Shown here piece by piece: positions 22,992 through 43,571 of a stretch of DNA of 64,000 nucleotides (position 1 is its first letter; each line of letters opens with the position of its first letter). Origin of the DNA: a virus; the IMG/VR virus record IMGVR_UViG_3300025727_000008, positions 1 through 64,000 of that record; one strand, written 5' to 3'. The notes beneath the pieces were generated by a model that did not search any database, was not told the DNA's origin, and saw only the letters and a program-made list of their open reading frames with translations. The translations under genes and the position numbers were made by a program.

Positions 22992-23222
22992 TCACCCCAT
23001 TGTATTTACTAATTCGTGTATATCTTCCCATTCCATACTCTTTTTTATTGGGCTGCCACTCATAGGAATATTTGTACTGTCCATCATTGGTGAAGGAGAA
23101 TCTACCACTACTAATCCTGATTTCATAAGTAAGTTATCTTTATGATAAACTGCTTCTTCAAGATGTTTCACTTTACTTACTAATTCTTTTAATAATAATA
23201 ACATTTCATTTTCTTCACTCAT
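22992..23222 (-). CDS. small coiled protein with C-terminal W-tag
   Basis: 76 residues from the ATG at 23222. The N-terminal half is a Leu/Glu/Lys coiled coil (EMLLLLKELVSKVKHLEEA), the middle Ser/Pro/Met-rich, and the C-terminus SMEWEDIHELVNTMG closely matches the end of the protease-scaffold, SMTWDDVHNLVRGD. A small coiled protein carrying the same capsid-end peptide as the scaffold is a good candidate for an auxiliary scaffold or protease regulator. The function is inferred from this shared tail. Confidence 0.6.
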   Translation of the reverse strand: MSEENEMLLLLKELVSKVKHLEEAVYHKDNLLMKSGLVVVDSPSPMMDSTNIPMSGSPIKKSMEWEDIHELVNTMG

Positions 23223-23295
23223 AAAAACCATTCCTTCGATATGCTGCCACTAGTTCTTCTGTTATTAATCTTTTAAGTTCTCTTTTCATATTCAT
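23215..23295 (-). CDS. 26-residue coupled microprotein
   Basis: ATG at 23295 shares its A with the TAA of the upstream tagged gene, and its TGA overlaps the start of the next gene. The product MNMKRELKRLITEELVAAYR... is a basic amphipathic helix. Overlap at both ends argues for real translation. No family recognised. Confidence 0.45.
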   Translation of the reverse strand: MNMKRELKRLITEELVAAYRRNGFYE

Positions 23296-23603
23296 TATTT
23301 ACCATCTCTCGGTTTATATATTTTAGTTCCTATATATTTCGGTTCAGGTAATGTAGGACTTAAAGGATGTTCAGTATTCATTAAACAACTCCCATTATCA
23401 CTAATAGTTACTTCAGGTAAAGAACATTTTAAGTTTTTATTATGACCACATTTGGTAGCCTCACATTTTCTTACTTTACAATCTGATGCAGTAGGTATAA
23501 ACGCAGTTCCTTTTGGTATATATTTTGTTCCGCCACCTGCAATATCACTAATTCTAGAAGCCATTTCTGCATCTTCATTCTTAACTATATCTTTCCAACT
23601 CAT
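23295..23603 (-). CDS. W-tagged Cys-cluster protein (DUF1540-like)
   Basis: 102 residues beginning MSWKDIVKNED, a clear copy of the N-terminal tag. The body has a Cys cluster at about 42-73: CKVRKCEATKCGHNKNLKC, then Cys after VTISDNGS, spaced like the metal-binding DUF1540 family seen in some bacteria and archaea. A Pro-rich tail follows. As a tagged protein it is a candidate for packaging inside the capsid. The DUF resemblance is by Cys spacing and I rate it moderate. Confidence 0.6.
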   Translation of the reverse strand: MSWKDIVKNEDAEMASRISDIAGGGTKYIPKGTAFIPTASDCKVRKCEATKCGHNKNLKCSLPEVTISDNGSCLMNTEHPLSPTLPEPKYIGTKIYKPRDGK

Positions 23604-23615
23604 TTAATCATCTCC

Positions 23616-24092
23616 TTAATATTCTGCACCATATTGGTTATCTACTTTAACAGGCAGCATTAGTCCATCACCCATTGGTTCTCCCCACATTTCATCATCC
23701 TTTAGTTTGTAATCTATATATGCTGGATGAACTTCACCCATTCCACCTGAAGGAGTTTGTCGCATATTGGTATCTTTCTTACTATTCGTTTCTTCCTTAT
23801 ATTCATCAGATGTATCTACTAAGCCTTGAATTAAGTGAAGCAAAGCACTATTGTAGGATTCTTTAGCATGTTCTAACCTGTTAAATTTCTCATCAATATA
23901 TTTAAAATCTTCTTCTGATAACTTTCCGTCTAATTTTGGAAATCGCTCATATGCTAAATGCTCAAAATCACCCCAATCTAATTTGGAAAAAGGCTCTATT
24001 TCCAAACTTTCTAATTCGTCTGCTATATCTTCTAATTCTTCCGCAATGCTACCTTTATCATTTATCTTTACTATATCTTTCCACCAACTCAT
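23616..24092 (-). CDS. W-tagged acidic protein
   Basis: 158 residues beginning MSWWKDIVKINDKG. The body is acidic and helical (AEELEDIADELESLEIEP; YIDEKFNRLEHAKESYNSALLHL) and ends GLMLPVKVDNQYGAEY. No catalytic motif, Cys cluster or membrane span. Belongs to the run of tagged genes from 23.3 to 26.7 kb. Unknown function; internal head protein is inferred from the tag. Confidence 0.6.
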   Translation of the reverse strand: MSWWKDIVKINDKGSIAEELEDIADELESLEIEPFSKLDWGDFEHLAYERFPKLDGKLSEEDFKYIDEKFNRLEHAKESYNSALLHLIQGLVDTSDEYKEETNSKKDTNMRQTPSGGMGEVHPAYIDYKLKDDEMWGEPMGDGLMLPVKVDNQYGAEY

Positions 24093-24124
24093 TTAATCAC
24101 CTTAATTTTGTCGTATCTGCAAAT

Positions 24125-24397
24125 TCAGGTGATTCTGCTGTACCACTCAATTTTCTCCTTTATTAGTATATCTTTTATTGTCTCGGCTTCCTTATCCCAT
24201 TCAACATCTTCAGGATTTGTGTCGCCTTTTGCCAAATCCTCAAACAACCTTTGAATATATTTTAAACTTCCTAGTAAATTATTTACCCGCCCTCCAAGTT
24301 CACGAATTACGGCACTATCAGTTCCCTGTCGTAGGGTTTTATTATTAGGATTTCTCTTATCTGCGTCTTCTTTCTTTATTTCATCTTTCCAAGTCAT
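24125..24397 (-). CDS. W-tagged small protein
   Basis: 90 residues beginning MTWKDEIKKEDADKR. It is charged and helical (VIRELGGRVNNLLGSLKYIQRLFEDLAKG), ending KEKIEWYSRIT. Its start overlaps the stop of the next tagged gene by four bases, so the two are translationally coupled. No family recognised. Confidence 0.6.
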   Translation of the reverse strand: MTWKDEIKKEDADKRNPNNKTLRQGTDSAVIRELGGRVNNLLGSLKYIQRLFEDLAKGDTNPEDVEWDKEAETIKDILIKEKIEWYSRIT

Positions 24398-24720
24398 TCT
24401 AAATCCCCCTTACTCTTAGGATAAACCATATCTCTTAATTGACGATATAGTGTTTCATAATCTTTTCTAAGTTCTGCTGCTGATGATACTATTTCTAAAT
24501 TCCTTTCATCAAAGCCCTCAAACTTTTTTTGTAATTTTTTATCAGATTTAACTAAATCTAATTTACGCATTTCATCTAATAAATCAGATAAATGAGTCAT
24601 CTCTTGACCCATATATTCAGTAGGTTGGGTTTTCTGTAAAAGTTTCTTAAGTTTCTTTTTTTGTTTAGGTTCAACTTTTTCTAAAATTGAAGTAGATTTA
24701 AGTATATTTTTCCAACTCAT
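24394..24720 (-). CDS. W-tagged small helical protein
   Basis: 108 residues beginning MSWKNILKSTSILEK. A Lys-rich stretch (PKQKKKLKKLLQK) is followed by helices with Leu/Asp/Arg spacing (LSDLLDEMRKLDLV, SAAELRKDYETLYRQLRDM). It may bind DNA or the capsid wall through the basic part; this is inference. Overlaps the downstream tagged gene by four bases. Confidence 0.6.
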   Translation of the reverse strand: MSWKNILKSTSILEKVEPKQKKKLKKLLQKTQPTEYMGQEMTHLSDLLDEMRKLDLVKSDKKLQKKFEGFDERNLEIVSSAAELRKDYETLYRQLRDMVYPKSKGDLE

Positions 24721-24757
24721 ATCTTACCCTTATCCATTCGCTTGTATGTATAGTTTA

Positions 24758-26746
24758 TCAATTTATGTTTTTAAGTTTAGAAATAATTAATTTTTCTAAC
24801 CCGTTATTTTTCATAGATGTTACATATTCATTATAAATATCATCTAATTGCTTTTCAGTAGGGTTTGTTAATTTACTTTGTTTTTCTTTTAGTGTTTTTA
24901 TAAATTCCATATGTTGTATCTGCGCTGGTCTATTTAATTTTAAATCTCTAAGTGTATCAAACCATGAATCAGCCTCATCTTTCAAACTATCTATATTATC
25001 TCCTGTTTGGCTAGCATTTACATCTTTAATTTTCCTCTTCATGCGATGTGTTTCTTCTTTAGTATTATCAGGTAAATCTCCAAACCCTTCACCTAAAGCA
25101 CCAGTACCATTAAATAAATTACTTAATTTTGTTAATTTCTTAACATATTTCTTTTTAAGTTCCTTAATTTTATTTATGTTAGATTTGTTTTCCCGTTCTG
25201 TTATAGATGCGTCAACACGTTCTGTTAATTGTTCTATAGTTAATTTTTCACCTTTTTTACTATTTAAAGTAGTATCAAGCATATCTAAAATTTCTGTTTC
25301 TATTTCAATTATTTCTATATTTAACTTCTCTAGAAGAATATATTTTCCTTTAATTTTCAATGCAGATAAAATACCATTAAGTGCTTTTGATATTTTTTTC
25401 CTTTTACTAACTAATTCTTTAAAATTATCAATAATGGCTAAAGGCTCATTAGGTTTTGAATAACTAATACTATCTTTGAAATCTTCAGTCATTTCATATC
25501 CATCATCATTAATATCTTTTACCCATTGTCGTTTTTGAGGTTTAACTTCTTTAGAGAGTTCGTATAGTTCTTTTATTGATACTCCGTCTAATGGAATGTC
25601 TGCATCTATTAGTGTTATTTCGTTTGATTTATCATTTAAATCTTTTATTGATTCATTTAAATCATCAATTCTAGATTGTTTCATAGGATTTTTAATTTCT
25701 ACCATACAACTAATTATGAGTCTTAATATTTTTAAATTAGATTCAATTTCTAACATAAATTCTTTAAAATCAGGTTTATCCTTTTCAATATCAATACCAT
25801 TATCACCTATTTCATCTTCTAATATTATTATTTTTTTTATTATTTCATATCCAATTAAATCATTATTTTTTTTAAAAAGAAGTGGTAAATGTTCATCTGC
25901 CTCTTTTATTAATTCAATATTATTTGATTCTATAGGTTCAATAAATTCTTCTATAAATTTAATAGTACTTTCATAATCCATATCAAAATATTCAGTTAAC
26001 AATTCTGTTGATTTATCACTTATATATTGATTATCAAATGTAATATCTAATTTATCAAATATAGCATATAATATTTTTTTGGATTTTATAAATCCGAAGT
26101 CTGTTATAATTTTAGAATATCTTTTAGGTATTTTTTCATTATTATTTAAATAACCATTTAATGATTCAGCAAGGCGTTTAATTAATTCATTTTCACTGTT
26201 AGTAGTAGTCTTTCCTGTATTTAATATTTTTTTAAACATTTCAAGGTCTTTATCTGATTTGTGTTTTTTAGGAATACCATAAATCTCTTTTAATCTAAAA
26301 ATTAATCCACTTTTACGCTTTTTCTCTTCTAATAATAAGTTATATGCTTCAGGATATTTATCTTTAGTTATATTTTTTTCAACATCATCTATTGCATTTT
26401 TAAGAATATTTAAAACTTTAAAATCATCTATTTTCCTTGTTCCTGTATCGTCTTTAGGAGTAGTAGTTTGTGTTTTTTCACCCTCTTCAAGTCGTTCCGT
26501 GTCTGTAAATGTTTTATGATGTATATATGTCCACTCACTATTATTAATATCATCCAAATTAAAAATATCTAATTGAGGAACACCATCTAATTGATTATAT
26601 TTATTTTTTACGTCTTTCATATCCCTAATTAAAGTCTTACTTTCCTTTAAATCCATCTCCCTATATTTACGCAAAATTTTTATTATGATTTCCGATAATG
26701 GTTTAAGTTTACGTTCTTTATTTTTTAAAATATCCATAAACGACAT
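24758..26746 (-). CDS. giant W-tag family protein (662 residues), tag variant MSFMDILK
   Basis: 662 residues starting MSFMDILKNKERK, where Phe replaces the tag Trp but the DILK remains. The rest is almost continuous charged helix, rich in Lys, Glu, Asp, Asn and Ile, with heptad-like stretches (ELKKKYVKKLTKLSNLF). No enzyme motif is visible. Resembles in composition the 920- and 753-residue tagged proteins at 32.0-37.1 kb. I propose an internal head or ejected protein, based on tag and location upstream of the portal's neighbours. Confidence 0.6.
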   Translation of the reverse strand: MSFMDILKNKERKLKPLSEIIIKILRKYREMDLKESKTLIRDMKDVKNKYNQLDGVPQLDIFNLDDINNSEWTYIHHKTFTDTERLEEGEKTQTTTPKDDTGTRKIDDFKVLNILKNAIDDVEKNITKDKYPEAYNLLLEEKKRKSGLIFRLKEIYGIPKKHKSDKDLEMFKKILNTGKTTTNSENELIKRLAESLNGYLNNNEKIPKRYSKIITDFGFIKSKKILYAIFDKLDITFDNQYISDKSTELLTEYFDMDYESTIKFIEEFIEPIESNNIELIKEADEHLPLLFKKNNDLIGYEIIKKIIILEDEIGDNGIDIEKDKPDFKEFMLEIESNLKILRLIISCMVEIKNPMKQSRIDDLNESIKDLNDKSNEITLIDADIPLDGVSIKELYELSKEVKPQKRQWVKDINDDGYEMTEDFKDSISYSKPNEPLAIIDNFKELVSKRKKISKALNGILSALKIKGKYILLEKLNIEIIEIETEILDMLDTTLNSKKGEKLTIEQLTERVDASITERENKSNINKIKELKKKYVKKLTKLSNLFNGTGALGEGFGDLPDNTKEETHRMKRKIKDVNASQTGDNIDSLKDEADSWFDTLRDLKLNRPAQIQHMEFIKTLKEKQSKLTNPTEKQLDDIYNEYVTSMKNNGLEKLIISKLKNIN

Positions 26747-26761
26747 TACTATTACCTCTGC

Positions 26762-26992
26762 TTAAAATGGGATATTTTCACTACGCATATTTTTTCTTTT
26801 AGGAGTTATCATAACATCAGGTATGTTACTAGGGGCATCATCTGTTTTATTTTTTAATGTTGTAGATGGGTCTACACCAACTACCGCATAATCCTTACTA
26901 ACAGTAACATTACTTCTCTGTTCCGAACCTTCCTTAATTCTTGCTTGCTTCAATTCTCTTTCTAATTGTCTTACACTTTTTTCTTCACTCAT
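26762..26992 (-). CDS. small portal-adjacent protein
   Basis: 76 residues. The N-terminus is a charged helix (RQLERELKQARIKEG) and the remainder is Ser/Thr/Asn/Pro-rich and probably disordered, ending in a basic stretch (TPKRKNMRSENIPF). It starts one base after the portal stop. It carries no tag. It may act with the portal in head assembly, by position only. Confidence 0.5.
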   Translation of the reverse strand: MSEEKSVRQLERELKQARIKEGSEQRSNVTVSKDYAVVGVDPSTTLKNKTDDAPSNIPDVMITPKRKNMRSENIPF

Positions 26993-26993
26993 T

Positions 26994-28664
26994 TTATCCT
27001 ACTCTCCTTTCTGTTCTTTTATCATTATTTTGATTACCAGCATCTTTAGGTAATCCTGTAAATCTTTTATCAGGGGCAACATTCATTCTAGGTTTGTTTC
27101 TCTTTTTAGGGGGTTCTGATTTTGCTTTTTCTGGAACACCCGCTTCTGCCAAACTAGGTTTATTACCCGCTTCCATCATTTGCCCTAATTGGCTTGCATC
27201 AACATCAGTTCCAGCATAAGGGTCAGGTTTGAAATCATCACCATCTGTTTGGGTTTTACCTTGTTCATCTCCTTCTACTGGTTCGGGTTTAGTATAAATA
27301 AATCCACCTTCATCATCCATTTCTACATCAAACCCTAAATTCTTTATTGAACCTGCAATATTAACTTCCATTTCTCTTAATCGAAGAACAGCAATTTCAT
27401 CTTCTTCTTCAGAAGGTGGTAATTTTAATTCCCAATCAGTAATGCCAAATTCACTAGTCATAAAAGGAAATACATAATTATTCCAAGTTGTTTGTGCCAT
27501 CTCTACTGCGCGATTAGTAACAAGAATTTGCATACCTTCGTTATTTAACCCACCACTAGCAGAAGCATCATTCATAAACACTTTACTAACTCCATAGAAC
27601 CCTGATATTCTATCTCTCAAATCATCTTTAACTGCAATATAATCCATTTCCTTAAGGCTGTCCATAAATCTAACCCATTCAACAGAACCCTTACCACCTT
27701 CAGATTCTATTCCCATTACAGGTATGAAGTGTGGGTCTTGTTCCATCTTCTCTTTAACGCCACGCCAAAAAGATTTCATTGAATCCATATTTCTAGTTTG
27801 AACAGCCAACAATCCCTTCGGCATTCTTGCCTTAGTATATGATGAATTTACATAATTATCCATTGCTATTAAGGTTGTAACATTATTCCATAATGTTATT
27901 ATTGGCGACATACCATATAATCTAGAAGGAGAATATTTACTAAAATGTACTACTTCACCTTTAATGAAATACTGTTCCTCTCCATTTACTCTATTAACAT
28001 AATGAACAGGATATAATTCAGATGCACAAGTTTCACATAACTCAGTTTGATGACTATGTACTCTATCTCTATGTCTTAAACAAATAAATCCACCTTTACC
28101 TCTTTCCCCTAATTCATTAGAATAAATATGCATAGTAACAGGGTCGCCTCTAAATATTTCTTTAATTTTATGCATTCTAATTTTTGAATTATTATCTAAA
28201 TAATATTCTTTAACATTAACTAAATATGCATCATCCATAATATTCAAATCATCTTCTAATTCTTTTAATACATCAATAAATAATTGTTCTGCACCATTAA
28301 CATAACCATCTAAAAAATCTTTAGCATAACTTAATTGTTTAGGTTCAGGTTTAACTAAATTGGTAGAACCGCAATCAACACATTCCTTTACAGGAGTAGA
28401 ATGTTCTTTATCACATTCTGCACACTTTTCTGTAAATTTTCCTTCCCATATATATCCCCGTCTAAATATTTCTTGTTTCAATTGAGTTATACAAGTTCGT
28501 ACTATTGTTGATTGTTGAACTATATGATAAATTATAGGACTAGTTAACATATAGGAATTATCTCTTTCTTGTATTCCTAAATTAAACACCGTTCTATCTG
28601 CGGGTTTAGGTGTAGTATTTCTAAACAAGTTAGTAAATGAAAACTTTCTTTTTTCTTCAACCAT
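26994..28664 (-). CDS. portal protein with two zinc-binding insertions
   Basis: 556 residues. The order TerL, portal, protease, capsid is conserved here apart from insertions. Portal-like features: an early helix (SPIIYHIVQQSTIVRTCITQLKQEI), VHFSKYSPSRLYGMSPI and the helical C-terminal crown (RLREMEVNIAGSIKNLG). Two Cys modules are inserted: CAEC-x9-CVDC at about 75-93 and CLRH...CETC at about 197-216, each consistent with a zinc ribbon. The C-terminal 110 residues are disordered, Asp/Glu- then Lys/Arg/Pro-rich. Its ATG overlaps the stop of the LAGLIDADG gene by one base. Confidence 0.8.
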   Translation of the reverse strand: MVEEKRKFSFTNLFRNTTPKPADRTVFNLGIQERDNSYMLTSPIIYHIVQQSTIVRTCITQLKQEIFRRGYIWEGKFTEKCAECDKEHSTPVKECVDCGSTNLVKPEPKQLSYAKDFLDGYVNGAEQLFIDVLKELEDDLNIMDDAYLVNVKEYYLDNNSKIRMHKIKEIFRGDPVTMHIYSNELGERGKGGFICLRHRDRVHSHQTELCETCASELYPVHYVNRVNGEEQYFIKGEVVHFSKYSPSRLYGMSPIITLWNNVTTLIAMDNYVNSSYTKARMPKGLLAVQTRNMDSMKSFWRGVKEKMEQDPHFIPVMGIESEGGKGSVEWVRFMDSLKEMDYIAVKDDLRDRISGFYGVSKVFMNDASASGGLNNEGMQILVTNRAVEMAQTTWNNYVFPFMTSEFGITDWELKLPPSEEEDEIAVLRLREMEVNIAGSIKNLGFDVEMDDEGGFIYTKPEPVEGDEQGKTQTDGDDFKPDPYAGTDVDASQLGQMMEAGNKPSLAEAGVPEKAKSEPPKKRNKPRMNVAPDKRFTGLPKDAGNQNNDKRTERRVG

Positions 28665-30001: not shown

Positions 30002-30013
30002 TATATCACCGCC

Positions 30014-31447
30014 CTAAAAGTTCAGTCCTAGCATACCGCCTAAAGAGTTATTCGTAGGAGTAGGAGATTCAAATAACCCCATATCATCTAATAACATAAA
30101 AACATCTTGTGAATTTTGAGTAGCGGCATTGGCTAATGCTAAACTCATAACTAAATCGTCATGTGCGCCAACTCCCTCAAATTTACCTGAATGAGTAATA
30201 GAAAACATAGACAATTCTTCTACTAATAAATTAGTTAATCTCTTACTAGTATTATCACCATAAGGAAAATTGATTTTTCCATTTTCTATGTTCATTTGAA
30301 GGTTCAAAATGATTTCTTGTTTTCTTTTTCTAGTAGTATTGAAATCTGTAACATTCAAATCTGAAATGTTTCTTAATTCTTGAGTAAATGCTTTAGCAAA
30401 GGTATTAGTTTCGTATAGGATTTCTTCAGGTTCAAATATTTTACCAATCAATCTAATTTTATCTATGTTTTCTCTAAACTCAACATTTTTTGCTCTATCA
30501 ACATGAACTACGGTTTTATTCATATGTTCATCTACTTCTAATACAGTAATAACATTATAATCACCATCTGTTGAAATAGCAGGGTCAACCCCAACATAAT
30601 ATTTGTAGCCTTTGTGTTTTCTATGTCCTAATTTAAGAACGTAATCTTTATTTTTACATTTATCTATAAATTGAGGATTAAATAATGCTGTTCCAGTGGA
30701 AATCGGAACACATAGATATTCCCTTGTAAACTTTAAAGAACCAATTTCCTTTTTCCTACGCATAAGGGCATCATAATCCCATCTATCAACCCAAAGTGGT
30801 TCATTTAAGGCATTAAGACATGGATATTTAGTAACAGTATATGCTTCATTATCCTCTAATTGTGCAAAAATATCAGTATAAGTGAAAGGAGTTCCAATCA
30901 TTCTCAACTTAGAAGAATGGTGTAGGGTTGGTATCATATCTCCAAAGAACCAATCAGTTACTTTCTCAATACCTACTAAACTAAATTCTTTCAAAGGGTC
31001 ATCAATAATGATTTCTTGCGGGTGAAGTCCTCTAATTTGAGAACCAACTGAACGCTCTAAAATTGCGTTTCCATTTGTAAGTTGTATATTTCCAATAGCC
31101 CAACCACGACTAGGTTTGTATGGTTTTAATGCTGGAAGATTAAAATATCTATCAATTTCTCGCATGTGAACTAATGTCTGTTTTTGGTTAGATGAAATGT
31201 ATAGCATTTGGAATGGTGGTTCTTGGAATACTAAGTTCCACACAACCCAACTATGCATAAATACAGATTTACCGTGGTCGCGGCTACAAATGATAACTGT
31301 TCTATCTGTTGTTTGCATACTCTCTAACCATTCATGCATATATTCAGGATATAATAATCCCAATACATTTTGGAAAAAATATGGAAAGGAAGTTTTAGAT
31401 AATTCCATATCCATTTGAGTTACAAAATCTAAATTATCCAATTCCAT
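30014..31447 (-). CDS. terminase large subunit
   Basis: 477 residues. ATPase motifs: Walker A SRDHGKS (55-61) in a TVIICSRDHGKS context, Walker B EIIIDDP (about 145-151), and a coupling motif near RMIGTPF. The nuclease domain begins YYVGVDPAISTDGDYN (Asp288), continues LYETN and ends GAHDDLVMSLALA, giving the acidic residues of an RNase H-type fold. It translocates and cuts genomic DNA at the portal. Length is normal for the family. The product starts one base downstream of the GNAT gene stop. Confidence 0.92.
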   Translation of the reverse strand: MELDNLDFVTQMDMELSKTSFPYFFQNVLGLLYPEYMHEWLESMQTTDRTVIICSRDHGKSVFMHSWVVWNLVFQEPPFQMLYISSNQKQTLVHMREIDRYFNLPALKPYKPSRGWAIGNIQLTNGNAILERSVGSQIRGLHPQEIIIDDPLKEFSLVGIEKVTDWFFGDMIPTLHHSSKLRMIGTPFTYTDIFAQLEDNEAYTVTKYPCLNALNEPLWVDRWDYDALMRRKKEIGSLKFTREYLCVPISTGTALFNPQFIDKCKNKDYVLKLGHRKHKGYKYYVGVDPAISTDGDYNVITVLEVDEHMNKTVVHVDRAKNVEFRENIDKIRLIGKIFEPEEILYETNTFAKAFTQELRNISDLNVTDFNTTRKRKQEIILNLQMNIENGKINFPYGDNTSKRLTNLLVEELSMFSITHSGKFEGVGAHDDLVMSLALANAATQNSQDVFMLLDDMGLFESPTPTNNSLGGMLGLNF

Positions 31448-31448
31448 A

Positions 31449-32043: not shown

Positions 32044-34806
32044 TCACCTAAAGTTAGCCTTTAAGAAATATACACTTTCTTTTGGAACACCATGTTTTAC
32101 ACCAATTTCACCTAAAGAATTAATCTCATTAACTATTAAATATATTTCATGGGCAGTTACATCTACATTATAATCATTTTTCATTATTTCAATAGCAGCA
32201 TTAGTATGGTCGAAATTATCTAATTTAGATGTATTATAGTATATTGGTTTACCTAACATTTTTCTAATACTATCATGTGCTTTTAGCATTTTATATTCCA
32301 TAGTTGCTTCAGAATTTTTAAACTCATCTAATGCCTGTACGAAATTAATTATAATATTAGCATTTTTTTGTTTACTTCCACTAAAAGACTGTTCAATACT
32401 TTCTCTATGATTATGTATTTCTTTAACTATCATATAAAATGGGTAATTTTTTCTCTTACTCTTACTACTATCATCATGCCAATTTTCAGGAGTTTTCTTA
32501 GAGTCTGAATTAGGGAAATATCCTTCAGGATTAATATTACTCTTACTATGATACTCAAAATATTCCTCTAACCTTCCATAGTTATCTAATATATTATACA
32601 GATGTGTTCCGAATTCTTCATTAGCATCTGTTAATAATATTTTATCATTTTTATCTAAATCTGCAATTAGTTTAACTAAGTTAATTCCTTCTTTCATCAG
32701 GTCAATAATTTTAGCCATTGTTATATTTTTATTGGGGGTATTTATTTTATTAAGATAATTAGTTACTCTTTTAATATGTCTAGGTTTAAATTTACTATAA
32801 CCTAGTTCTAATGTTTCATCCGACATATAATTTTCAAGTGTTTTTCTTTTAGTAGCACCTCTCAATATACCAAATACTCTCGTTAAATTATTATCTCCTG
32901 TATCTAACGATAATGAATCTTCAAAAGGGGAATATCTACTGTTTATGGGAGTTACAAAATACTCATTAATAATTTCTAATAATGCTTTAAATGTTTTATC
33001 TAGTTTTTTAAGTTGCTCACCTTCAATCATAATTTCATCATCACCAATAGAACCTAAGTTTTCCAATAATGGTGATATTAATGCCTGTACTGCTGTTTTT
33101 TTCTTACGATATTTATCAGTAGTTTTGGTAGGTGCAACAACACCAGTATCATATAACTTAGAAAAAGTAATTAAAAATTCTGCAATCCTATCTGTTTTTA
33201 TCTTTATTTTTCCAACTTCTGTTATAGGAGTTTCAACATATTCATCAACATTTTCTTCTCTACCTTCCTTTACTTGATTATCCATTTTACCCATAAATAA
33301 TGTAGATATGGTAGTCTTAGATAATGGTAAATAATATTCAGACTCATTTAACACAGAAGCAGTTCGGTTTAATTTTTTAACATATTGTAATATTAATGGC
33401 TCTATATCCACATCCATTACTGAATGATATTTATCTGATTCATTAAGTAATAATCTTTCTAATGTTTTCATTTCATCGAATAATACAGGAGTAGGGTCTT
33501 TAAATGCTTTATTTTTAAATTCTAAATAATACAAAGGGTCAACCTTTATTTTTCTCATATCACTTAATGTCTTACCTAAAACAATAATATCTTTTTTAGG
33601 TAATTCTGCTCCTTTTTTCCCACCTTCCACTTCCGCAGTATCAGACACTATATTACCCTCATCATCAAATTGAGCAACACTCTCGTAATGTTGTTCATCA
33701 GGTTCAAATTCATCTTTTATTAAAGGTAATAATTTTTTATTGTTTAAAATCCCCTCAAATAAAACTAAATGTTTTTCATGTTTCATAAAATCATCTAACT
33801 CTTTTGCTTCAAAAGAACTAACATAATTTAAATTATTATCAAGTTCATTACTAACTATATTTTCATTAAATTCTAATAATTTAATAATAATATTTTTAGT
33901 TTCTCCGGTAAATTTTTCTATACCCATATTGTCGATTTCTGTTTTAAATGCCTTAAATTTATTTTGAAAGACCTTGTAATCTTTATTTACTTCTTCCCAA
34001 TACTGATATATGGCCGCTCTATTACTTGCTTTACGAGAATCTAATGTTCCTACCATATCATTAATAGGTAAAAACATTTTTTTATTATCATTTGAATTAT
34101 ATATTTTAAGTTGTTCATAGATAGGTTGCATTGGAGTTTTCTTATGTGGTTCAAGAAGATTAATAAAATCCATATATTTATCTATATCTTTTTTATCTAT
34201 ATCTTTACCTTGTTTGAAATTAACTACATCTATTTTTTGCGTCATGTTTTCAAACACTTTTTTGTAGTTTACAGATTTACCATCAGAATCAACGAACAAA
34301 TTCAATATTTCTTTTATTTTATCATTTTCAGATTGTAACTCATTTTGTCTTTGTCCAGCAGATACTTTACCACTTACCTCTATATCATGTTCTTTTAATA
34401 CATGTTGTATCATTAAACTAACCTTATTTGAAAAATCACTAATATATTCTTCATCTATTCTTTTATTAAGATGGGTATAAGCACCAAATATTTGTTTTGT
34501 AAACTCATTTTTTGTTTGAGTATCATTTGATGTTCTTTCTAGGTTTAATTTTCCATCTTCATTTAATATGTATTCTCTTTTCGGTGTTGAAGGAGAATTT
34601 AAAAAATCATTTAATTTTTCAGGTTTATTAAATATTTTATCAAGAACACTTTTTGTAAATTGTATTTTATCTGATATAGTATTTTCAATAAATTCGGTAT
34701 TTTCTTCATAGAAATTTTTGATAATATATTTCCTAGTTGGTTTATATCCTTCTAACATATACTTAGCAAAAATTTCCTTCTCGTCTTGCCAACTTATTTC
34801 ACTCAT
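32044..34806 (-). CDS. giant protein (920 residues) with divergent W-tag
   Basis: Begins MSEISWQDEKEIFAKYM, in which the tag tryptophan is shifted by three residues and the ILK part replaced, so I count it as a divergent tag. The rest is charged helix with many Lys/Glu/Asp/Asn, no Cys module and no catalytic motif. At about residues 87-93 it carries NLERTSN, a string also found near the start of the protein at 39.4-40.6 kb. Four bases from the next giant gene. Probable internal virion protein by context. Confidence 0.6.
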   Translation of the reverse strand: MSEISWQDEKEIFAKYMLEGYKPTRKYIIKNFYEENTEFIENTISDKIQFTKSVLDKIFNKPEKLNDFLNSPSTPKREYILNEDGKLNLERTSNDTQTKNEFTKQIFGAYTHLNKRIDEEYISDFSNKVSLMIQHVLKEHDIEVSGKVSAGQRQNELQSENDKIKEILNLFVDSDGKSVNYKKVFENMTQKIDVVNFKQGKDIDKKDIDKYMDFINLLEPHKKTPMQPIYEQLKIYNSNDNKKMFLPINDMVGTLDSRKASNRAAIYQYWEEVNKDYKVFQNKFKAFKTEIDNMGIEKFTGETKNIIIKLLEFNENIVSNELDNNLNYVSSFEAKELDDFMKHEKHLVLFEGILNNKKLLPLIKDEFEPDEQHYESVAQFDDEGNIVSDTAEVEGGKKGAELPKKDIIVLGKTLSDMRKIKVDPLYYLEFKNKAFKDPTPVLFDEMKTLERLLLNESDKYHSVMDVDIEPLILQYVKKLNRTASVLNESEYYLPLSKTTISTLFMGKMDNQVKEGREENVDEYVETPITEVGKIKIKTDRIAEFLITFSKLYDTGVVAPTKTTDKYRKKKTAVQALISPLLENLGSIGDDEIMIEGEQLKKLDKTFKALLEIINEYFVTPINSRYSPFEDSLSLDTGDNNLTRVFGILRGATKRKTLENYMSDETLELGYSKFKPRHIKRVTNYLNKINTPNKNITMAKIIDLMKEGINLVKLIADLDKNDKILLTDANEEFGTHLYNILDNYGRLEEYFEYHSKSNINPEGYFPNSDSKKTPENWHDDSSKSKRKNYPFYMIVKEIHNHRESIEQSFSGSKQKNANIIINFVQALDEFKNSEATMEYKMLKAHDSIRKMLGKPIYYNTSKLDNFDHTNAAIEIMKNDYNVDVTAHEIYLIVNEINSLGEIGVKHGVPKESVYFLKANFR

Positions 34807-34810
34807 ATTA

Positions 34811-37072: not shown

Positions 37073-37203
37073 ATTAAATCACTACTTTCTAAAATAATTC
37101 TAATATCATTTATGGTTGGATTACCTTTCATTACTTTTATAATTTCATTTAGAGCGTCTGACCTTTTAGCCCCTATGTTTTTAATGGTATCTTCCCAACT
37201 CAT
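37069..37203 (-). CDS. 44-residue W-tagged microprotein
   Basis: Small frame MSWEDTIKNIGAKRSDALNE... ending in a TGA that overlaps the start of the giant gene (ATGA), and starting in an ATGA overlap with the gene upstream. The tag makes up almost a quarter of the protein, and the remainder is a helical segment. The double overlap and the tag both support it as a real gene. Confidence 0.65.
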   Translation of the reverse strand: MSWEDTIKNIGAKRSDALNEIIKVMKGNPTINDIRIILESSDLI

Positions 37204-37559: not shown

Positions 37560-37565
37560 TGTAAC

Positions 37566-37901: not shown

Positions 37902-38308
37902 TGCATCAACTCTATCATTAATCCTTTTTCATCAATTTCTGTAACTTTCAGTTCTGAATTATTCTTCAGTTTATCTGCAACCTTATACAAATGAGGATTC
38001 GTTATTCGACCATAGGCTAACCAAAATGGCCTATATTCTCCTAATACCCCATTAGTGTCCATTAATGCCCCAACTACCATTTTTTCTGCAAACCCTTTTC
38101 TTTGGTAATCAGGATGAATAGAAATATGTAATTCTCTTATCTTTCCATCATTAAATGGCTTCATGTTTTCAAGGCTACTATAATCTTTAGGCCGGTAATG
38201 CAAAATTAGTTTATCTCCGTATTCCTCAAACAAAACATTGTGAAACCAACCATCATCATCTACTGAAATAGGACTAATTTCCGCTTTTAATAACTGTTGC
38301 CAACTCAT
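37898..38308 (-). CDS. W-tagged GNAT-family acetyltransferase
   Basis: 136 residues: tag MSWQQLLKAEI, then a compact GNAT core. IRELHISIHPDYQRKGFAEKMVVGAL holds the beta4 strand and the Q/R-x-x-G-x-A acetyl-CoA pyrophosphate loop; NPHLYKVADKL is the following helix. It is a complete minimal GNAT. An enzyme carrying the same N-terminal peptide as structural-region proteins suggests it is packaged and delivered with the genome. Substrate unknown. Confidence 0.7.
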   Translation of the reverse strand: MSWQQLLKAEISPISVDDDGWFHNVLFEEYGDKLILHYRPKDYSSLENMKPFNDGKIRELHISIHPDYQRKGFAEKMVVGALMDTNGVLGEYRPFWLAYGRITNPHLYKVADKLKNNSELKVTEIDEKGLMIELMQ

Positions 38309-38964
38309 TGTAACTTCTCCATTTTACTTCTAACATCTAACCAAACTTCAGGATGGTTTTGTGCTAACACCTCTTTGATAATTTGCATCTGATGAACAAT
38401 AATTGTATCTTGCCTCTTATGTACTAACTTACCTTTGAACTCCATCAAGTATCTCAAACTCTCACGGACTTCTTTAGCCAACTTAGTTAGTGAATCAATA
38501 TGTTTAGCATCCAAATCATCGGAATCAAAAAGCATATCTAACTTAATATCTAATCTAGAAATATTTGCACTCAAGGTATCAACCTCATTTATTTCTTGCA
38601 TAGCAATCATATTTGCAGCAGACTGTTGAACTAAAGGTTGCACATGATTTTTAATATGTCTAACTACTTGGTCAGCAGTACAATTTAACATTAAACCAAC
38701 TTCTTCAGGAGTTATATTTGCACCATGTAATTGCAATTCAATCTCACTTCTATGTTCACTAATACAAATGTTACATCTAGGATTAGAAGAATTAACATAT
38801 CCTTCCATGTGATTTCTTTGATGTCTTGAAGCAGTTCCACTAGACCAATCCATTTGGACATCCAAATCATCAGCAGTAATTATCATATTATCTAATTCAT
38901 CTTCTAGAGTTTGCCTATTATCTAAATTACAAAATACACAACGTTTTCTGGTTATCATTTCCAT
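38305..38964 (-). CDS. zinc-finger DNA-recognition protein, candidate small terminase
   Basis: 219 residues, untagged. Two similar Cys/His modules: CVFCNLD...HQRNH (about 9-52) and CNICISEHRSEIELQLHG...HIKNH (about 64-107), the second with a helix-turn-helix-like stretch (ITPEEVGLMLNCTADQVVRHIKNH). The C-terminal half is a long coiled helix. HTH plus coiled coil upstream of TerL in the same transcript is the architecture of a small terminase subunit; zinc modules would be an unusual addition. It might instead be a transcription regulator. Overlaps the tagged GNAT by four bases. Confidence 0.5.
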   Translation of the reverse strand: MEMITRKRCVFCNLDNRQTLEDELDNMIITADDLDVQMDWSSGTASRHQRNHMEGYVNSSNPRCNICISEHRSEIELQLHGANITPEEVGLMLNCTADQVVRHIKNHVQPLVQQSAANMIAMQEINEVDTLSANISRLDIKLDMLFDSDDLDAKHIDSLTKLAKEVRESLRYLMEFKGKLVHKRQDTIIVHQMQIIKEVLAQNHPEVWLDVRSKMEKLQ

Positions 38965-39323
38965 AATTCCTCTTCAGGGTAAAGTTCCATAGCCTCTTCT
39001 ATATCTTCTCTAAAGTTTTCAGCGACTTCTAACCAATCAACATCTGATATTGAATCTCCTACTTCATCTCTATCATTAACGGGAGATAATAATTCATCCA
39101 TGAAACCTTTACTTTGAGTCATCATTTCAGGTAACTCTTTTGCTATTGTATTTAATATATCATCTATAACATCTTGTTTAGTCCAGTTGAATTCAAGATA
39201 ACCTTTTACCTTTAATTTAATTAACTGTACTATAGGAAAATAAAGTTCTTCAGTATTCATAACCCATAAATCTGCACTTCTAGTAGCAGTTGCGGTATCT
39301 TTCAATATCTTTTTCCAACTCAT
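38955..39323 (-). CDS. W-tagged acidic protein
   Basis: 122 residues from the ATG at 39323 (MSWKKILKDTATATR), preceded by GGAGAG; a longer frame from 39371 would bury the tag and overlap the 25-residue gene. The body is mixed, ending very acidic (ENFREDIEEAMELYPEEELWK). No catalytic motif. Overlaps the zinc-finger gene start by ten bases. Confidence 0.6.
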   Translation of the reverse strand: MSWKKILKDTATATRSADLWVMNTEELYFPIVQLIKLKVKGYLEFNWTKQDVIDDILNTIAKELPEMMTQSKGFMDELLSPVNDRDEVGDSISDVDWLEVAENFREDIEEAMELYPEEELWK

Positions 39324-39324
39324 C

Positions 39325-39402
39325 TTAATACTCTCCACAATAAGGACACATAATCCCTGAATAATTATCACTGTTAATATTTATTTTACAACACTTTAAC
39401 AT
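39325..39402 (-). CDS. 25-residue Cys microprotein
   Basis: ATG at 39402 after GAGG, product MLKCCKININSDNYSG... ending CPYCGEY, stop at 39325 two bases before the next tagged start. CC plus CPYC could hold one zinc ion. Start overlaps the upstream gene stop. Good ribosome site and packing make translation likely. Confidence 0.5.
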   Translation of the reverse strand: MLKCCKININSDNYSGIMCPYCGEY

Positions 39403-40562
39403 ATTAATTCCCTCTTTAAAATATCTCGCCAATCATTAACTTCTACATCATTAGTTTTTTTAGTTTGAGATTTAACTTCCGGTTTATCAAATCTAATAGT
39501 AACAGTATTATGTTTCCTACCTGTTTTTGGTTCAGTAAACTTTCTATTATTTTCCTTCAATAATATTTTTGCCATCTGATTTGCTACCCCTCTAGTTAAT
39601 TTAAAATATCCTCGTTTAAGTGTGAAAAATTCAGGTATTCCTAAATTATTCCTAACTCTATTTTGAAAATCTTTTCTTGTTGGCAATAAATGACTTTTAC
39701 TCTCTATTTCTCGCATAACCTCGCCATATCGAAATGCACCATTTCTACCTGCCATATCAGGTTCAATATATTTACGAACTATTCTCTTAATACTATTAAT
39801 TTCTAATGCTTTTTCAGCCCAACCTGTTTGTCCTTTTTTTCCTAATTTAATAGGATTATCTTTACTTATACCTACACCGTCTTTTAAGGCTTCAATACCT
39901 TCTTCTATGATTTCATGTAAACTTTTAGAACTTGTAATTTTAACCTCACCTTCTCTACCATACATAACTTGCCAAAAAGGTGGTTCGGCTACACCTTTAG
40001 AATAGTCATACCAAGATTCAGGACATGCCGGTGCAGGGTTTAAATCCCTTTTAGGGAATTTTTTCATTTTAATTTTTCTTTTATTTTCATAATTTTTAGT
40101 ACGATAGTGTCCATATACTTCTTCTTCATCTACAACTTTACCACTATCTTCATCTACTTCTTTATCGGTAAAAGAAATATTTCTAGGATTTAAAGGGTTT
40201 TGAGGGCTACTATAAGAATCCATTAAAAGTCTAACTTTATTTAATTTTATTATATCATCTATACCAATATCTTCTCCATCAACAATATTAGTAATAATTC
40301 CTATAATTTCAGAACCACCTTTACCACTAGTATAAGGTGAAGGGGATTTATCACCTTGTAATCTACCAATTAATCCTTGTTGTTTAAACATCTGATAAAG
40401 ACTAATATCATTTTCCATAAATAATGTTTCACCACTTATTTCTGATAACTGTTGTTGCCAATTATCAAACGATTTTCCAAACATTTGGACATTAGCACCA
40501 GTTAATTTAACATCATTTTTTAAGATTATATTTGACGTTCTTTCTAGGTTTCTTTTTGCCAC
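39396..40562 (-). CDS. protein with C-terminal W-tag
   Basis: 388 residues from a GTG at 40562 following GGGGG; an internal ATG at 40484 is an alternative. Starts MAKRNLERTSN, sharing NLERTSN with the 920-residue protein. Basic overall, with folded-looking parts (EIIEEGIEALKDGVG; YGEVMREIESKSHLLPTRKDFQNRV) and a C-terminal end VNDWRDILKRELIC, the tag placed at the opposite terminus from its neighbours. No family recognised. With the protease-scaffold it shows the tag works at either end. Confidence 0.6.
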   Translation of the reverse strand: MAKRNLERTSNIILKNDVKLTGANVQMFGKSFDNWQQQLSEISGETLFMENDISLYQMFKQQGLIGRLQGDKSPSPYTSGKGGSEIIGIITNIVDGEDIGIDDIIKLNKVRLLMDSYSSPQNPLNPRNISFTDKEVDEDSGKVVDEEEVYGHYRTKNYENKRKIKMKKFPKRDLNPAPACPESWYDYSKGVAEPPFWQVMYGREGEVKITSSKSLHEIIEEGIEALKDGVGISKDNPIKLGKKGQTGWAEKALEINSIKRIVRKYIEPDMAGRNGAFRYGEVMREIESKSHLLPTRKDFQNRVRNNLGIPEFFTLKRGYFKLTRGVANQMAKILLKENNRKFTEPKTGRKHNTVTIRFDKPEVKSQTKKTNDVEVNDWRDILKRELIC

Positions 40563-40638
40563 GTTTTTTACCCCCTATTGATTTATTATTAAATAAAGAT
40601 GAAGTTCCACTATTACTAGTAGTAACTGCCCCTGCCAT
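40513..40638 (-). CDS. possible 41-residue basic peptide
   Basis: ATG at 40638, product MAGAVTTSNSGTSSLF... with a Lys/Arg-rich end (GGKKRGKKKPRKN). It overlaps the first 50 bases of the 388-residue gene in another frame. A basic tail could bind DNA, but Lys codons are easy to produce in A-rich DNA and the ribosome site is weak. Confidence 0.3.
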   Translation of the reverse strand: MAGAVTTSNSGTSSLFNNKSIGGKKRGKKKPRKNVKYNLKK

Positions 40639-40711
40639 TCTTAGTATTGTAAACCATTTAGTGTTAAGAGAAGATGCCACTTATCTAAGCGCAATACTAC
40701 TTGGACTATAA

Positions 40712-40801
40712 CTATTCTTCTTCTCCTTCTATTGCTCTAATAATAGCATACCAGTATTCTTCTTCTTGAGTTAGAATTTTATTATTCTTATCTTTTTTCA
40801 T
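40712..40801 (-). CDS. possible 29-residue acidic peptide
   Basis: ATG at 40801, product MKKDKNNKILTQEEEYWYAII... ending EGEEE. No clear ribosome site; sits in the roughly 185-base gap between tagged genes at 40.64 and 40.82 kb. Otherwise I see nothing in that gap. Confidence 0.3.
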   Translation of the reverse strand: MKKDKNNKILTQEEEYWYAIIRAIEGEEE

Positions 40802-40823
40802 TTTTATTAAACCAATTTCTATT

Positions 40824-41123
40824 TCACTCCAATCCTTTAAACGAATCTCTTTCTGAAATACCAGCATCATCCATTATATCTTGCAATCTAGCAACAAGAT
40901 ACTCATTTGTGAACACCTGCCAATTACCTTCTTCGGTTTGCATTGCTTCTAATCCACTTTCTAACCAAGTCAACCATCGGTGAGCATCATGTTCTAACTG
41001 TCCTTTCAACTTAGGCAAATACTCTAATCTAAACCTTCTAAGAAAATCCTTTACTTGCGCTACAGTCAATTCATTAGGATTGTAATGGGGTTTTTCCTTT
41101 CTAATTATATTAAACCAATTCAT
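40824..41123 (-). CDS. W-tagged small protein
   Basis: 99 residues beginning MNWFNIIRKEKPHYN, the aromatic-rich tag form shared with the genes up to 43.6 kb. Helical body with several Trp (HRWLTWLESGLEAMQTEEGNWQVF). Overlaps the downstream end of the next tagged gene by four bases. Function unknown. Confidence 0.6.
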   Translation of the reverse strand: MNWFNIIRKEKPHYNPNELTVAQVKDFLRRFRLEYLPKLKGQLEHDAHRWLTWLESGLEAMQTEEGNWQVFTNEYLVARLQDIMDDAGISERDSFKGLE

Positions 41124-41338
41124 TTTAATTGCCTTCTTAACATTGGTTTTTTAAATGTATTATATAATTCCCATAATGGTTCACTTGAATTAAGCCTAGT
41201 TATTTCATCATTCAGTTTTTTCATTCTATAAAGTGCTTGTGCGTCAGATTTAAAATCTTTAACTTTATCTCCTACTTCTGTGTACCATTCAGTATTACCC
41301 GATATGTGTCCTTTCTTAATTTGTTTTTTCCAATCCAT
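41120..41338 (-). CDS. W-tagged small protein
   Basis: 72 residues from the ATG at 41338 (MDWKKQIKKGHIS), after GGGGGAAATGATATT; a longer in-frame start at 41425 would bury the tag. Charged helix throughout, ending LRRQLK. Coupled to the next tagged gene. Function unknown. Confidence 0.6.
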   Translation of the reverse strand: MDWKKQIKKGHISGNTEWYTEVGDKVKDFKSDAQALYRMKKLNDEITRLNSSEPLWELYNTFKKPMLRRQLK

Positions 41339-41342
41339 AATA

Positions 41343-41825
41343 TCATTTCCCCCTTGCCATAACTTCAGCACACCTTCTACAATAGTGTAACTCTTTAGGT
41401 GAACCCTTTGAATGTATTTTACCATCTCTTATATATTTTTTAGTGCCTAGAGATACCGGTTTTTTGCATCGAACACAGCGAAATTTACTAAGATTAGAAT
41501 TTGGTTTTTTCTTTTCTTTTCCTTCAGGTCGCCCACTTGCATTAAATCCTTTAATACCATATTGCACTTCACCTTCTTGTGCCATTGATGTTCCTAACCT
41601 AGTTTTTCTCTCTTCGATTAATTTTTTACCTTCAACATTCCTGTTTAGTGGTAAATCTGTTCCTCTTCCCATTGTTCTACTAGTGCCTTTGGGTGCATGA
41701 CCTTCCTCTTCAATAGATTTTACTCTTTCGTTAGGTTTTAATCGTTCACCACCCATTATATCAACAGGTTTCCTGTTCCTATTCTTTCTAGGCCGATTTC
41801 TTTTAATTAAATCAAACCAAGTCAT
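41343..41825 (-). CDS. W-tagged basic protein with C-terminal zinc ribbon
   Basis: 160 residues beginning MTWFDLIKRNRPRKN. The first 115 residues are strongly basic and low in complexity. The end holds CVRCKKPV...HYCRRCAEVMARGK, a four-Cys zinc ribbon. Basic tail plus zinc ribbon suggests nucleic acid binding inside the head or in the newly infected cell; this is inferred. Overlaps the upstream gene by four bases. Confidence 0.6.
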   Translation of the reverse strand: MTWFDLIKRNRPRKNRNRKPVDIMGGERLKPNERVKSIEEEGHAPKGTSRTMGRGTDLPLNRNVEGKKLIEERKTRLGTSMAQEGEVQYGIKGFNASGRPEGKEKKKPNSNLSKFRCVRCKKPVSLGTKKYIRDGKIHSKGSPKELHYCRRCAEVMARGK

Positions 41826-42088
41826 TTTTTCCCACCTTCTAATATATTCCTACTAACTTGGCAACACAATCTAATCTTTTGTGTACTTTCTAAAAACCAA
41901 AAAGAATCCTTATCCCAATCAAATTTATTCTCAACATGATTACAAAGTTCTCTTCTTCCCATGTTTTGCAAATCACCATCTATACTAACATCAAGAATAT
42001 CACCTTTCGGATGCACTAACTTCTTATCTAACCAAACATAGGTACTACCCATGAATGCAATCAATTTTCTAATTATCCATTGCTTCAT
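41822..42088 (-). CDS. small protein, possible degenerate tag
   Basis: 88 residues. The start MKQWIIRKLIAFMG places a Trp and two Ile in a tag-like order but lacks the M-[STND]-W form, so I treat it as untagged or degenerate. Contains paired Cys (LCCQV) and His/Asn/Cys (ELCNHVENK). Coupled at both ends by overlaps of four bases. Function unknown. Confidence 0.5.
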   Translation of the reverse strand: MKQWIIRKLIAFMGSTYVWLDKKLVHPKGDILDVSIDGDLQNMGRRELCNHVENKFDWDKDSFWFLESTQKIRLCCQVSRNILEGGKK

Positions 42089-42786
42089 ACTAAATCACCT
42101 ACTACAATATCATGAATATTATTTGAACTATCTAAATATTGCAATATTAGTTTTACTTTTTCTTCATGCTTGATAACATCGTCATAAAAAATATCTATAG
42201 ATGAAGGAAACAAATATACATTCTCATGCTTTAATTGCCATACTTTATTACTGTAACTACCAGTTTCATCCCACGTTGTTATATTTTCATCGTAAATAGT
42301 CAATGGTCTAATTACCAGTAAGTTATCCATGTGATTTAGTAGTTCATTTAAAGGCTGGTGGAAAATGGAAGTTCTGTTGTTTTCGGAGAGCCATCCATCA
42401 TCTTCTTCTTGCATTGCGTTATACTCTTCCCACATTCTTTCATTCTCTAATTCATTTTCTGTTTTTTCCGGTTCAATCATATGGAGTTTATTATATCTTT
42501 TCGTTATATTATTTTTAGCAATATTAACTATCTTTTTGAATTTTTCATTCAACACATTATGCCCATTAAGAGTTAGACCACGATTACGCTTAATCCAATT
42601 AATAGTTTCTTCCTTAGTTTTCTGAGTTTCAATTGGTTGGCTCTTAGTCCAAGCAGACGGTTGTTCATGATATTTTTTCGGAGTAACATTTCCACCTGAC
42701 TTATTAGGACTTGACTTATTTCTATTCTTCTTTTGAGCATTACTAGGCCACTTCTTTTTTCTTTTTAGAATATCAAACCAAGTCAT
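42085..42786 (-). CDS. W-tagged protein
   Basis: 233 residues beginning MTWFDILKRKKKWPSN. A basic, Asn/Lys/Ser-rich linker (10-60) leads to a more folded region (about 100-233) with aromatic and acidic stretches (YNAMQEEDDGWLSENN; NVYLFPSSIDIFYDD). No motif recognised. The layout, tag then basic linker then domain, is what a packaged cargo protein might look like. Confidence 0.6.
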   Translation of the reverse strand: MTWFDILKRKKKWPSNAQKKNRNKSSPNKSGGNVTPKKYHEQPSAWTKSQPIETQKTKEETINWIKRNRGLTLNGHNVLNEKFKKIVNIAKNNITKRYNKLHMIEPEKTENELENERMWEEYNAMQEEDDGWLSENNRTSIFHQPLNELLNHMDNLLVIRPLTIYDENITTWDETGSYSNKVWQLKHENVYLFPSSIDIFYDDVIKHEEKVKLILQYLDSSNNIHDIVVGDLV

Positions 42787-42790
42787 TTTT

Positions 42791-43219
42791 TCACCCTTTA
42801 TTTTCTATGCCTAATTTAACATTTGGTGTTCCAAACAAACCATCAATAATTCGCCTGTATGGTTTACTAATATAACTATTGTATGCAACAAAATCTATTA
42901 ATTCTTGAACGGAACTAAATTCTGTCTTAGTTAAATATTGTTCTATTTCTTCAGAATCCCACATAAAATGCCCCCCATTAGAAAACGAATTACCATCCAG
43001 TCTTTTGGGAGAACCACGCTCATCATATTTTTTATATTGTAATCCTAATCTAGATGCTGTGTTTTTAATTTCTTCTTCAATTTCATTAGACCAAGAAATA
43101 GGAATATAACCAATTGCCTTTTGTTGATTTGAATTAAACATATTTTCTAATTCTCTTAATTTATTTAGATTGTGTTCTTTATCGAACCTTTCATTCTTTA
43201 AAACACTAAACCAATCCAT
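42791..43219 (-). CDS. W-tagged protein
   Basis: 142 residues beginning MDWFSVLKNERFD, after GGTGATAAA, which is also the end of the 44-residue gene upstream. Mixed alpha/beta body (AIGYIPISWSNEIEEEI; VQELIDFVAYNSYIS). No recognised family. Start is certain because the tag sits at the first residue after a strong ribosome site. Confidence 0.6.
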   Translation of the reverse strand: MDWFSVLKNERFDKEHNLNKLRELENMFNSNQQKAIGYIPISWSNEIEEEIKNTASRLGLQYKKYDERGSPKRLDGNSFSNGGHFMWDSEEIEQYLTKTEFSSVQELIDFVAYNSYISKPYRRIIDGLFGTPNVKLGIENKG

Positions 43220-43223
43220 TTTA

Positions 43224-43358
43224 TCACCAAAGTTGTGGGTACTGAAATGTTTTACCTAATGAAAACTGAAAAATGTGGTGGAATTTATTTAGCACTAGCG
43301 CGATTTTTTTTGTTGGGTAGTAACCATAAACAGTATAAGGATAATAGTAATGTGCCAT
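43224..43358 (-). CDS. 44-residue Tyr-rich microprotein
   Basis: ATG at 43358 after GAGGAATAATAA. Product begins MAHYYYPYTVYGYYP and ends FQYPQLW; eight of the first fifteen residues are aromatic. Its TGA forms part of the next gene's ribosome site, suggesting coupled translation. Tyr-rich peptides may self-associate; no function is claimed. Confidence 0.5.
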   Translation of the reverse strand: MAHYYYPYTVYGYYPTKKIALVLNKFHHIFQFSLGKTFQYPQLW

Positions 43359-43361
43359 TTA

Positions 43362-43571
43362 TTATTCCTCGATAAACTTTAGTGTTGTTTGTTTTGAATT
43401 AGGTTTCTGTTCATCAGCACTAATAACTTTAGTTGGTTTAGGTTTACCTTTAAACCATTTACTCGCAGGTTTAGATGATACAGTTGCACCGTCAATTAAT
43501 TCTTCAGGTAGTTTTGTTTGTGTTGTATTCTTTTTATTTTTACTATCTTTGATAATATTAAACCAGTTCAC
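43362..43571 (-). CDS. W-tagged small basic protein, first gene of the virion block
   Basis: 69 residues from a GTG at 43571, after GGTGATGTT. Begins MNWFNIIKDSKNKKN and continues as a Lys/Thr/Pro/Ser-rich disordered peptide. It is the first gene after the divergent control region, so it should be expressed from the promoter at about 43.6 kb. Function unknown beyond the tag. Confidence 0.6.
   Translation of the reverse strand: MNWFNIIKDSKNKKNTTQTKLPEELIDGATVSSKPASKWFKGKPKPTKVISADEQKPNSKQTTLKFIEE

Follow-up and report, generated by a model that had tools for sequence, protein, structure and literature searches.

The window examined here comprises bases 1-64,000 of the 78,572-base IMG/VR virus record IMGVR_UViG_3300025727_000008 and has a GC (guanine plus cytosine) content of 30.6%. 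The minus strand carries the genes for the terminase, portal, capsid and tape measure proteins, and the plus strand encodes a TFIIB-like factor, ribonucleotide reductase, a helicase and a ligase. In the head-gene segment of the minus strand, many otherwise dissimilar proteins begin with a common eight-residue peptide built around a tryptophan, and three others end with it (Table 1). The first-pass annotation of this DNA had described 17 such N-terminal tags between 22992 and 43571. All 17 fall at in-frame starts on the minus strand, 16 by a check of the start and MDWKKQIK from the translation of its open reading frame (ORF). Two require a start inside the longest ORF and one begins with GTG; a purine-rich, ribosome-binding-like sequence lies upstream of most tagged starts. 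The three C-terminal copies are likewise present, that of the prohead protease lying outside the interval first described. A divergent tag claimed for a 920-residue protein (32044-34806, MSEISWQDEK) is rejected because its homologues lack it: of the 66 detected, not one among those sampled starts with the tag.

Table 1. Tagged proteins and reference genes of the window, in order of position
Feature	Position	Strand	Remarks
Tape measure	4623-6248	-	
Major capsid protein (MCP), SU10/HK97 type	17558-18961	-	PF17236, phrog_24667, encapsulin/HK97 fold matches; proposed docking partner of the tag
S78 prohead protease with fused coiled-coil, scaffold-like extension; ends SMTWDDVHNLVRGD, same motif	18964-20142	-	Pfam PF04586 E=4.9e-10
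Coiled-coil-like, scaffold-like protein, 79 residues; ends SMEWEDIHELVNTMG	22992-23231	-	Present in most of ten genomes
N-terminal tag MSWKDIVK, 102 residues	23295-23603	-	14/19 family members N-tagged
N-terminal tag MSWWKDIVK (one extra W), 158 residues	23616-24092	-	
N-terminal tag MTWKDEIK, 90 residues	24125-24397	-	
N-terminal tag MSWKNILK, 108 residues	24394-24720	-	Widespread core family; strict tag in 63/92 homologues
N-terminal tag, F variant, MSFMDILK, 662 residues	24758-26746	-	
Portal, untagged	26994-28664	-	phrog_18178 E=5.5e-65; internal negative control
Large terminase, untagged	30014-31447	-	phrog_38 E=5.4e-51; internal negative control
N-terminal tag MSWQLILK, 753 residues	34811-37072	-	
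N-terminal tag MSWEDTIK, 44 residues	37069-37203	-	
N-terminal tag MSWQDVLK, 119 residues	37200-37559	-	
N-terminal tag MSWNNILK, 111 residues	37566-37901	-	
N-terminal tag MSWQQLLK, 136 residues	37898-38308	-	Weak GNAT-acetyltransferase match
N-terminal tag MSWKKILK	38955-39371	-	Start probably at 39323
388-residue protein; C-terminal tag NDWRDILKRELIC	39396-40562	-	C-tagged in 43/67 homologues
N-terminal tag MNWFNIIR, 99 residues	40824-41123	-	
N-terminal tag MDWKKQIK	41120-41425	-	Internal start ~41338; read from ORF translation
N-terminal tag MTWFDLIK, 160 residues	41343-41825	-	
N-terminal tag MTWFDILK, 233 residues	42085-42786	-	
N-terminal tag MDWFSVLK, 142 residues	42791-43219	-	
N-terminal tag (GTG)NWFNIIK, 69 residues	43362-43571	-	GTG start at 43571

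Among 80 relatives collected by a terminase search, the logo of the tag reads M-[STN]-W-[FQKE]-[DENS]-[IV]-[LIV]-K, and conservation ends sharply at residue 8. A search of related viruses for the motif, as the first-pass annotation had proposed, finds the tag hundreds of times: a regular expression matches 531 times on the terminase strand of the relatives as against 17 on the opposite strand. With a trained position matrix, 15 of the 51 late-strand ORFs of this record bear the tag and none of the 59 others. The corresponding figures for ten near-whole records are 123/622 and 3/649 (Fisher p=4.6e-37); a simple greedy program called these ORFs, and the denominators include some false ones. Placement is strictly terminal. 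As high a matrix score is reached at only 2 of 4,552 internal methionines, and tag-like strings inside proteins are nearly absent (1 in 140,620 late residues). A strict DNA pattern has six matches in this record, none in 50 Markov shuffles and none when reversed. A chance origin of the tag is ruled out.

One relative, designated L222, holds 19 tagged ORFs within 14 kb, and a narrower pattern, run against IMG/VR, matched at least 120 stretches. The MCP is encoded in 33 of 49 pattern-matching records tested, at 50-75% identity, and several of the remaining records contain other homologues. Beyond the strict matches, several further homologues of the 24394-24720 protein carry W-x-x-[IL]-[LI]-[KR] variants. 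Phenylalanine or tyrosine in place of the tryptophan recurs in relatives, where 26 such proteins were found; the phenylalanine version in the window is possibly a weaker tag, or one of different stoichiometry. The literature searched, which missed some key magrovirus papers, contained no earlier account of such a tag, and a prior report may exist. On a 36-kb contig (IMGVR_UViG_3300025168_000261), tagged ORFs beginning MSWENILK and MSWQDILK adjoin tail-like genes that have no detected homology to the window; this is possibly a second virus group with the tag.

The closest characterised kin of the MCP and portal are those of the HVTV-1/HCTV haloviruses (Druskaviridae). The window shares with Magrovirales a Druskaviridae-related MCP and portal, the character of a large archaeal member of the Caudoviricetes, and replication and morphogenesis modules on opposite strands; the published description of that group, viruses of marine Poseidoniales, fits the gene set of the window (PMC12999244). 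To judge from its relatives, the virus presumably infects Poseidoniales.

Within the late operon, tagged genes lie 5′ of the MCP gene, some interspersed with the terminase, portal and small head genes and some upstream of these; of the tail genes, which follow 3′ of the MCP, all but one lack the tag. The earlier assignment of the tag to proteins of the virion block thus holds for head-region genes 5′ of the MCP but not for the block as a whole. The same annotation had pointed to an equal frequency in non-virion genes as the observation that would speak against its proposal; the tag is instead nearly confined to the head-gene segment. Besides the portal and terminase, a ligase in the head region and the 38305-38964 protein lack the tag in this genome, and the homologues of both in relatives lack it as well. 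That ligase is an 861-residue protein (20175-22760, minus strand), its gene flanked by those for the protease and for the small scaffold-like protein, and it is widely conserved in relatives. The virus has two ATP-dependent DNA ligases, the other (61036-62580, plus strand) being an ordinary early ligase.

It is the C-terminal copies that tie the tag to procapsid assembly, since the motif terminates both the protease-scaffold fusion and the small scaffold-like protein. The gene for the former is directly upstream of the MCP gene, and its product ends in [MLIV]-[STDA]-W-x-[DE]-[IVL]-[HNA] in 62/62 non-redundant relatives. The small coiled-coil-like family, of 74-82 residues and encoded a few kilobases upstream, has 94 distinct homologues, and the motif ends all those sampled. 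In the family of the 39396-40562 protein, a few homologues carry the tag at the N-terminus instead of the C-terminus. With C-terminal copies in three families, and either end used in one of them, the tag is a position-independent module held in common with the scaffold tail. The methionine belongs to this module and is not simply a start codon, because it is kept before [STD]-W inside the scaffold C-terminus (84% Met), where no start codon is involved.

These features suggest that the peptide is a portable procapsid-loading tag, and we consider it probable that it acts as a capped helix that docks in the manner of the scaffold tail and carries cargo into the head. Position 2 is Ser, Thr, Asn or Asp in 89% of 910 tag starts, and Asp at position 5 is eight times as frequent as in the background, a signature of a capped helix. 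The tag probably folds as a short, self-capped amphipathic helix in which residue 2 (Ser, Thr, Asn or Asp) would be the N-cap and Asp or Glu at position 5 would close a capping box. Met1, or Leu in the scaffold, would form a hydrophobic staple with the isoleucine, and Trp3, Ile/Val6 and Leu7 would lie on one face. The scaffold part of the prohead protease would grip the inner face of the assembling shell, or the growing core, by its C-terminal motif. Cargo tagged at either end would take the same kind of site, become trapped on closure of the shell, and be carried in the head, presumably until it is delivered into the host.

AlphaFold modelling of the protease-scaffold and MCP, fused by read-through of the stop codon, gave a mean predicted local distance difference test score (pLDDT) of 48; the last 50 scaffold residues with the MCP (62 rows) gave 67, with the MCP partly folded. 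In both, the helix of the scaffold tail begins exactly at the tryptophan, with modest confidence. The best fold matches of the modelled MCP are encapsulins and HK97 capsids, with E-values above 0.001. An in-frame TGA in some MCP matches proved, in the cases read, to be merely the normal stop.

Several observations weigh against the loading tag as described. Neither AlphaFold model docks it confidently (tag pLDDT ~55-62), and for this reason no binding site is claimed. The C-terminal and N-terminal versions differ at two positions (His or Asn against Leu or Ile, and a variable residue against Lys), so that they might not bind an identical site. The cell might remove Met1 where Ser or Thr follows, and the idea of a staple would then be weaker. 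Finally, the ten records include three tags on the opposite strand and one 3′ of the MCP.

A common start could in principle reflect a nucleotide element, either a translation-initiation context or a recombination seam, with no function for the peptide. In favour of such an element is the codon of Ser2, which is AGT in 93% of tags compared with 50% when an untagged protein starts Met-Ser and 25% overall. It would also suit relative L222, where adjoining tagged genes (2201-7969) have about 15 N-terminal residues in common (ILKNIQISSQ). Elsewhere in the tag, however, synonymous codons vary freely, with all six leucine codons in use at Leu7, and the same peptide occurs at C-termini. Same-codon rates within genomes are hardly above those between genomes, so recent within-genome copying is not the general source of the tags, the L222 neighbours being an exception. 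Conservation tracks the peptide and not the DNA, and the nucleotide explanation, disfavoured already, is very improbable. The 460 distinct tagged proteins fall into 179 clusters with unrelated bodies, 116 of them singletons. Unrelated bodies, varied codons, strictly terminal placement and near-confinement to the head-gene segment support, at the level of sequence, a tag that acts as protein. The AGT bias may represent an initiation preference or old common descent, and the excess allows that some tags spread by copying. Convergence on one peptide, as first put forward, is thus not established. In L222, an 806-residue protein contains several internal repeats of the segment that adjoins the tag, but without the tryptophan tag itself.

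Among rival explanations that do assign a role to the peptide, the one with most in its favour holds that the tag targets the scaffold core or the protease and not the shell; cargo would enter by association with the core, and the scaffold's C-terminal copy would mediate self-association. Internal proteins of T4 associate with the core through their capsid-targeting sequence (CTS) (PMC5694885, PMC9026906), and two coiled-coil, scaffold-like proteins are among the bearers of the motif here. The present data fit shell binding equally well, and the model of the protease-scaffold with the MCP is too poor to judge; core targeting is a serious alternative, though on the whole an unlikely one. The tag could also be a recognition or processing signal for the S78 prohead protease, whose own copy would be an autoprocessing or auto-inhibitory site, as might be suspected from a motif that ends the protease in every relative examined and from the removal of T4 CTS peptides by the prohead protease (PMC9026906). 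This is improbable, since no residue is conserved at a fixed position after residue 8, the motif is found also on the small scaffold-like protein and at C-termini, from which cleavage would take away no more than a few residues, and the MCP, a usual substrate of such proteases, is untagged. Marginally less probable still is a localisation, stability or interaction signal of late proteins on the side of the host cell, for example for recruitment to an assembly site. The strict DNA pattern has 60 matches in 0.94 Mb of virus sequence (none reversed) as against 10 in 146 Poseidoniales-order genomes of ~250 Mb, where the reversed pattern has 5, so that the host figure is near control level and the density in the viruses is ~1,500 times higher. 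Moreover, the tag is nearly absent from tail and early proteins and is held in common with the scaffold tail. The earlier proposal of a docking tag for head loading is therefore partly supported: a protein-level tag and a scaffold tail with the same motif speak for it, and docking and packaging themselves are putative.

Scaffolding proteins of the P22 type engage coat protein through a C-terminal segment during procapsid assembly, and the conserved element at the extreme scaffold C-terminus of these viruses resembles that arrangement in its position. We know of no case in which the P22-type coat-binding segment is reused as a tag on many other proteins. The T4 CTS is an N-terminal peptide of ~10 residues that suffices to bring foreign proteins into the head (PMC9026906, PMC3012670); it is the only feature that the diverse internal proteins, such as IPI-III and Alt, have in common (PMC3012670, PMC9026906), and it is removed by the prohead protease (PMC9026906). 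The likeness drawn in the first-pass annotation holds insofar as a short N-terminal peptide is common to otherwise unrelated proteins, whose location in the head is here suggested by gene position. It fails in that the present tag is also C-terminal in three families, is tryptophan-based and recurs as the scaffold tail. No site that might be cleaved is conserved in position after residue 8 at the level of sequence, which by itself would not reveal cleavage. The tag is also far more widely used, in up to ~19 genes of one stretch, if these proteins are indeed packaged. In P1, an N-terminal packaging signal serves the large virion-internal protein DarB, and 30 residues suffice for a reporter (PMC9024508); that signal is described for DarB alone, whereas here an eight-residue consensus heads scores of unrelated proteins.

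The nearest analogue in an HK97-fold shell is provided by the encapsulin targeting peptides, which are short, mostly C-terminal and sometimes N-terminal, and dock cargo inside the shell (PMC8346489). They share with the present tag its terminal placement at either end. In contrast, their motif is of the Gly-Ser-Leu type (PMC8346489) and the tag is of the M-S-W-x-D-I-L-K type, and encapsulins, as cellular compartments, lack a scaffold, a protease and a genome, whereas the virus has a terminase, portal, protease and tape measure. HVTV-1/HCTV have the same gene order of portal, cargo region, protease and MCP, but the proteins encoded from portal to MCP bear no MSW-type tags, and their protease does not end in any clear motif. 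The tag is a separate motif, a member of neither the T4 CTS nor the encapsulin peptide family, with a logic that is known. It is conceivable, if not quite probable, that one universal peptide address, of one kind with the scaffold's tail and able to work at either end, operates across an archaeal tailed-virus lineage and loads a fast-changing arsenal, up to ~20 proteins in each virus, into the head, to be delivered to the host, as a viral counterpart of encapsulin loading and possibly akin to it in origin.

The tagged proteins have a median length of 109 residues and are mostly without known function. Family searches with 94 tagged representatives gave one strong Pfam match (PAP2), two NCBIfam phosphatase models, and six PHROGs and three PADLOC matches that are weak or unnamed, a head-protease family being among those from PHROGs. 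One tagged family is a PAP2-type phosphatase, soluble and plausible as cargo because its catalytic motifs KX6RP, PSGH and SRX5HX3D are all intact. It is encoded in relative L024 (10322-11119) and others, and in some versions the phosphatase domain is followed by another tag-like peptide, EKWQDILHKK. Some relatives tag a GNAT-like family that lacks the tag in this genome.

Proteins inside the heads of tailed viruses have no fold in common and are therefore difficult to identify. If the loading tag is real, a single motif would allow the probable head cargo of abundant uncultured ocean viruses to be listed straight from sequence, by the rule that a protein with the tryptophan tag is packaged. 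The hundreds of proteins in the 179 clusters, nearly all of unknown function, would become candidate injected effectors. Scaffold tail and cargo loading would be joined in one mechanism, and the compact tag could also serve to package proteins in HK97-type shells.

Other genes of the window deserve mention. In the structural block, a small GTPase-like protein with weak SRPRB/Roc/MMR_HSR1 matches (15437-16105, minus strand) adjoins membrane-like small proteins, and a tail-region protein of 1,244 residues (10269-14003, minus strand) has no Pfam or PHROG match. The plus strand includes an archaeal virus gene for a ThiF/E1-like protein (56351-57025). Adjoining ribonucleotide reductase, a protein of 66-71 residues (51426-51641, plus strand) has a conserved V[DN]W[DN]xVExVxLxPAIVGG-like end, which is outwardly tag-like yet a different motif, on the early strand.

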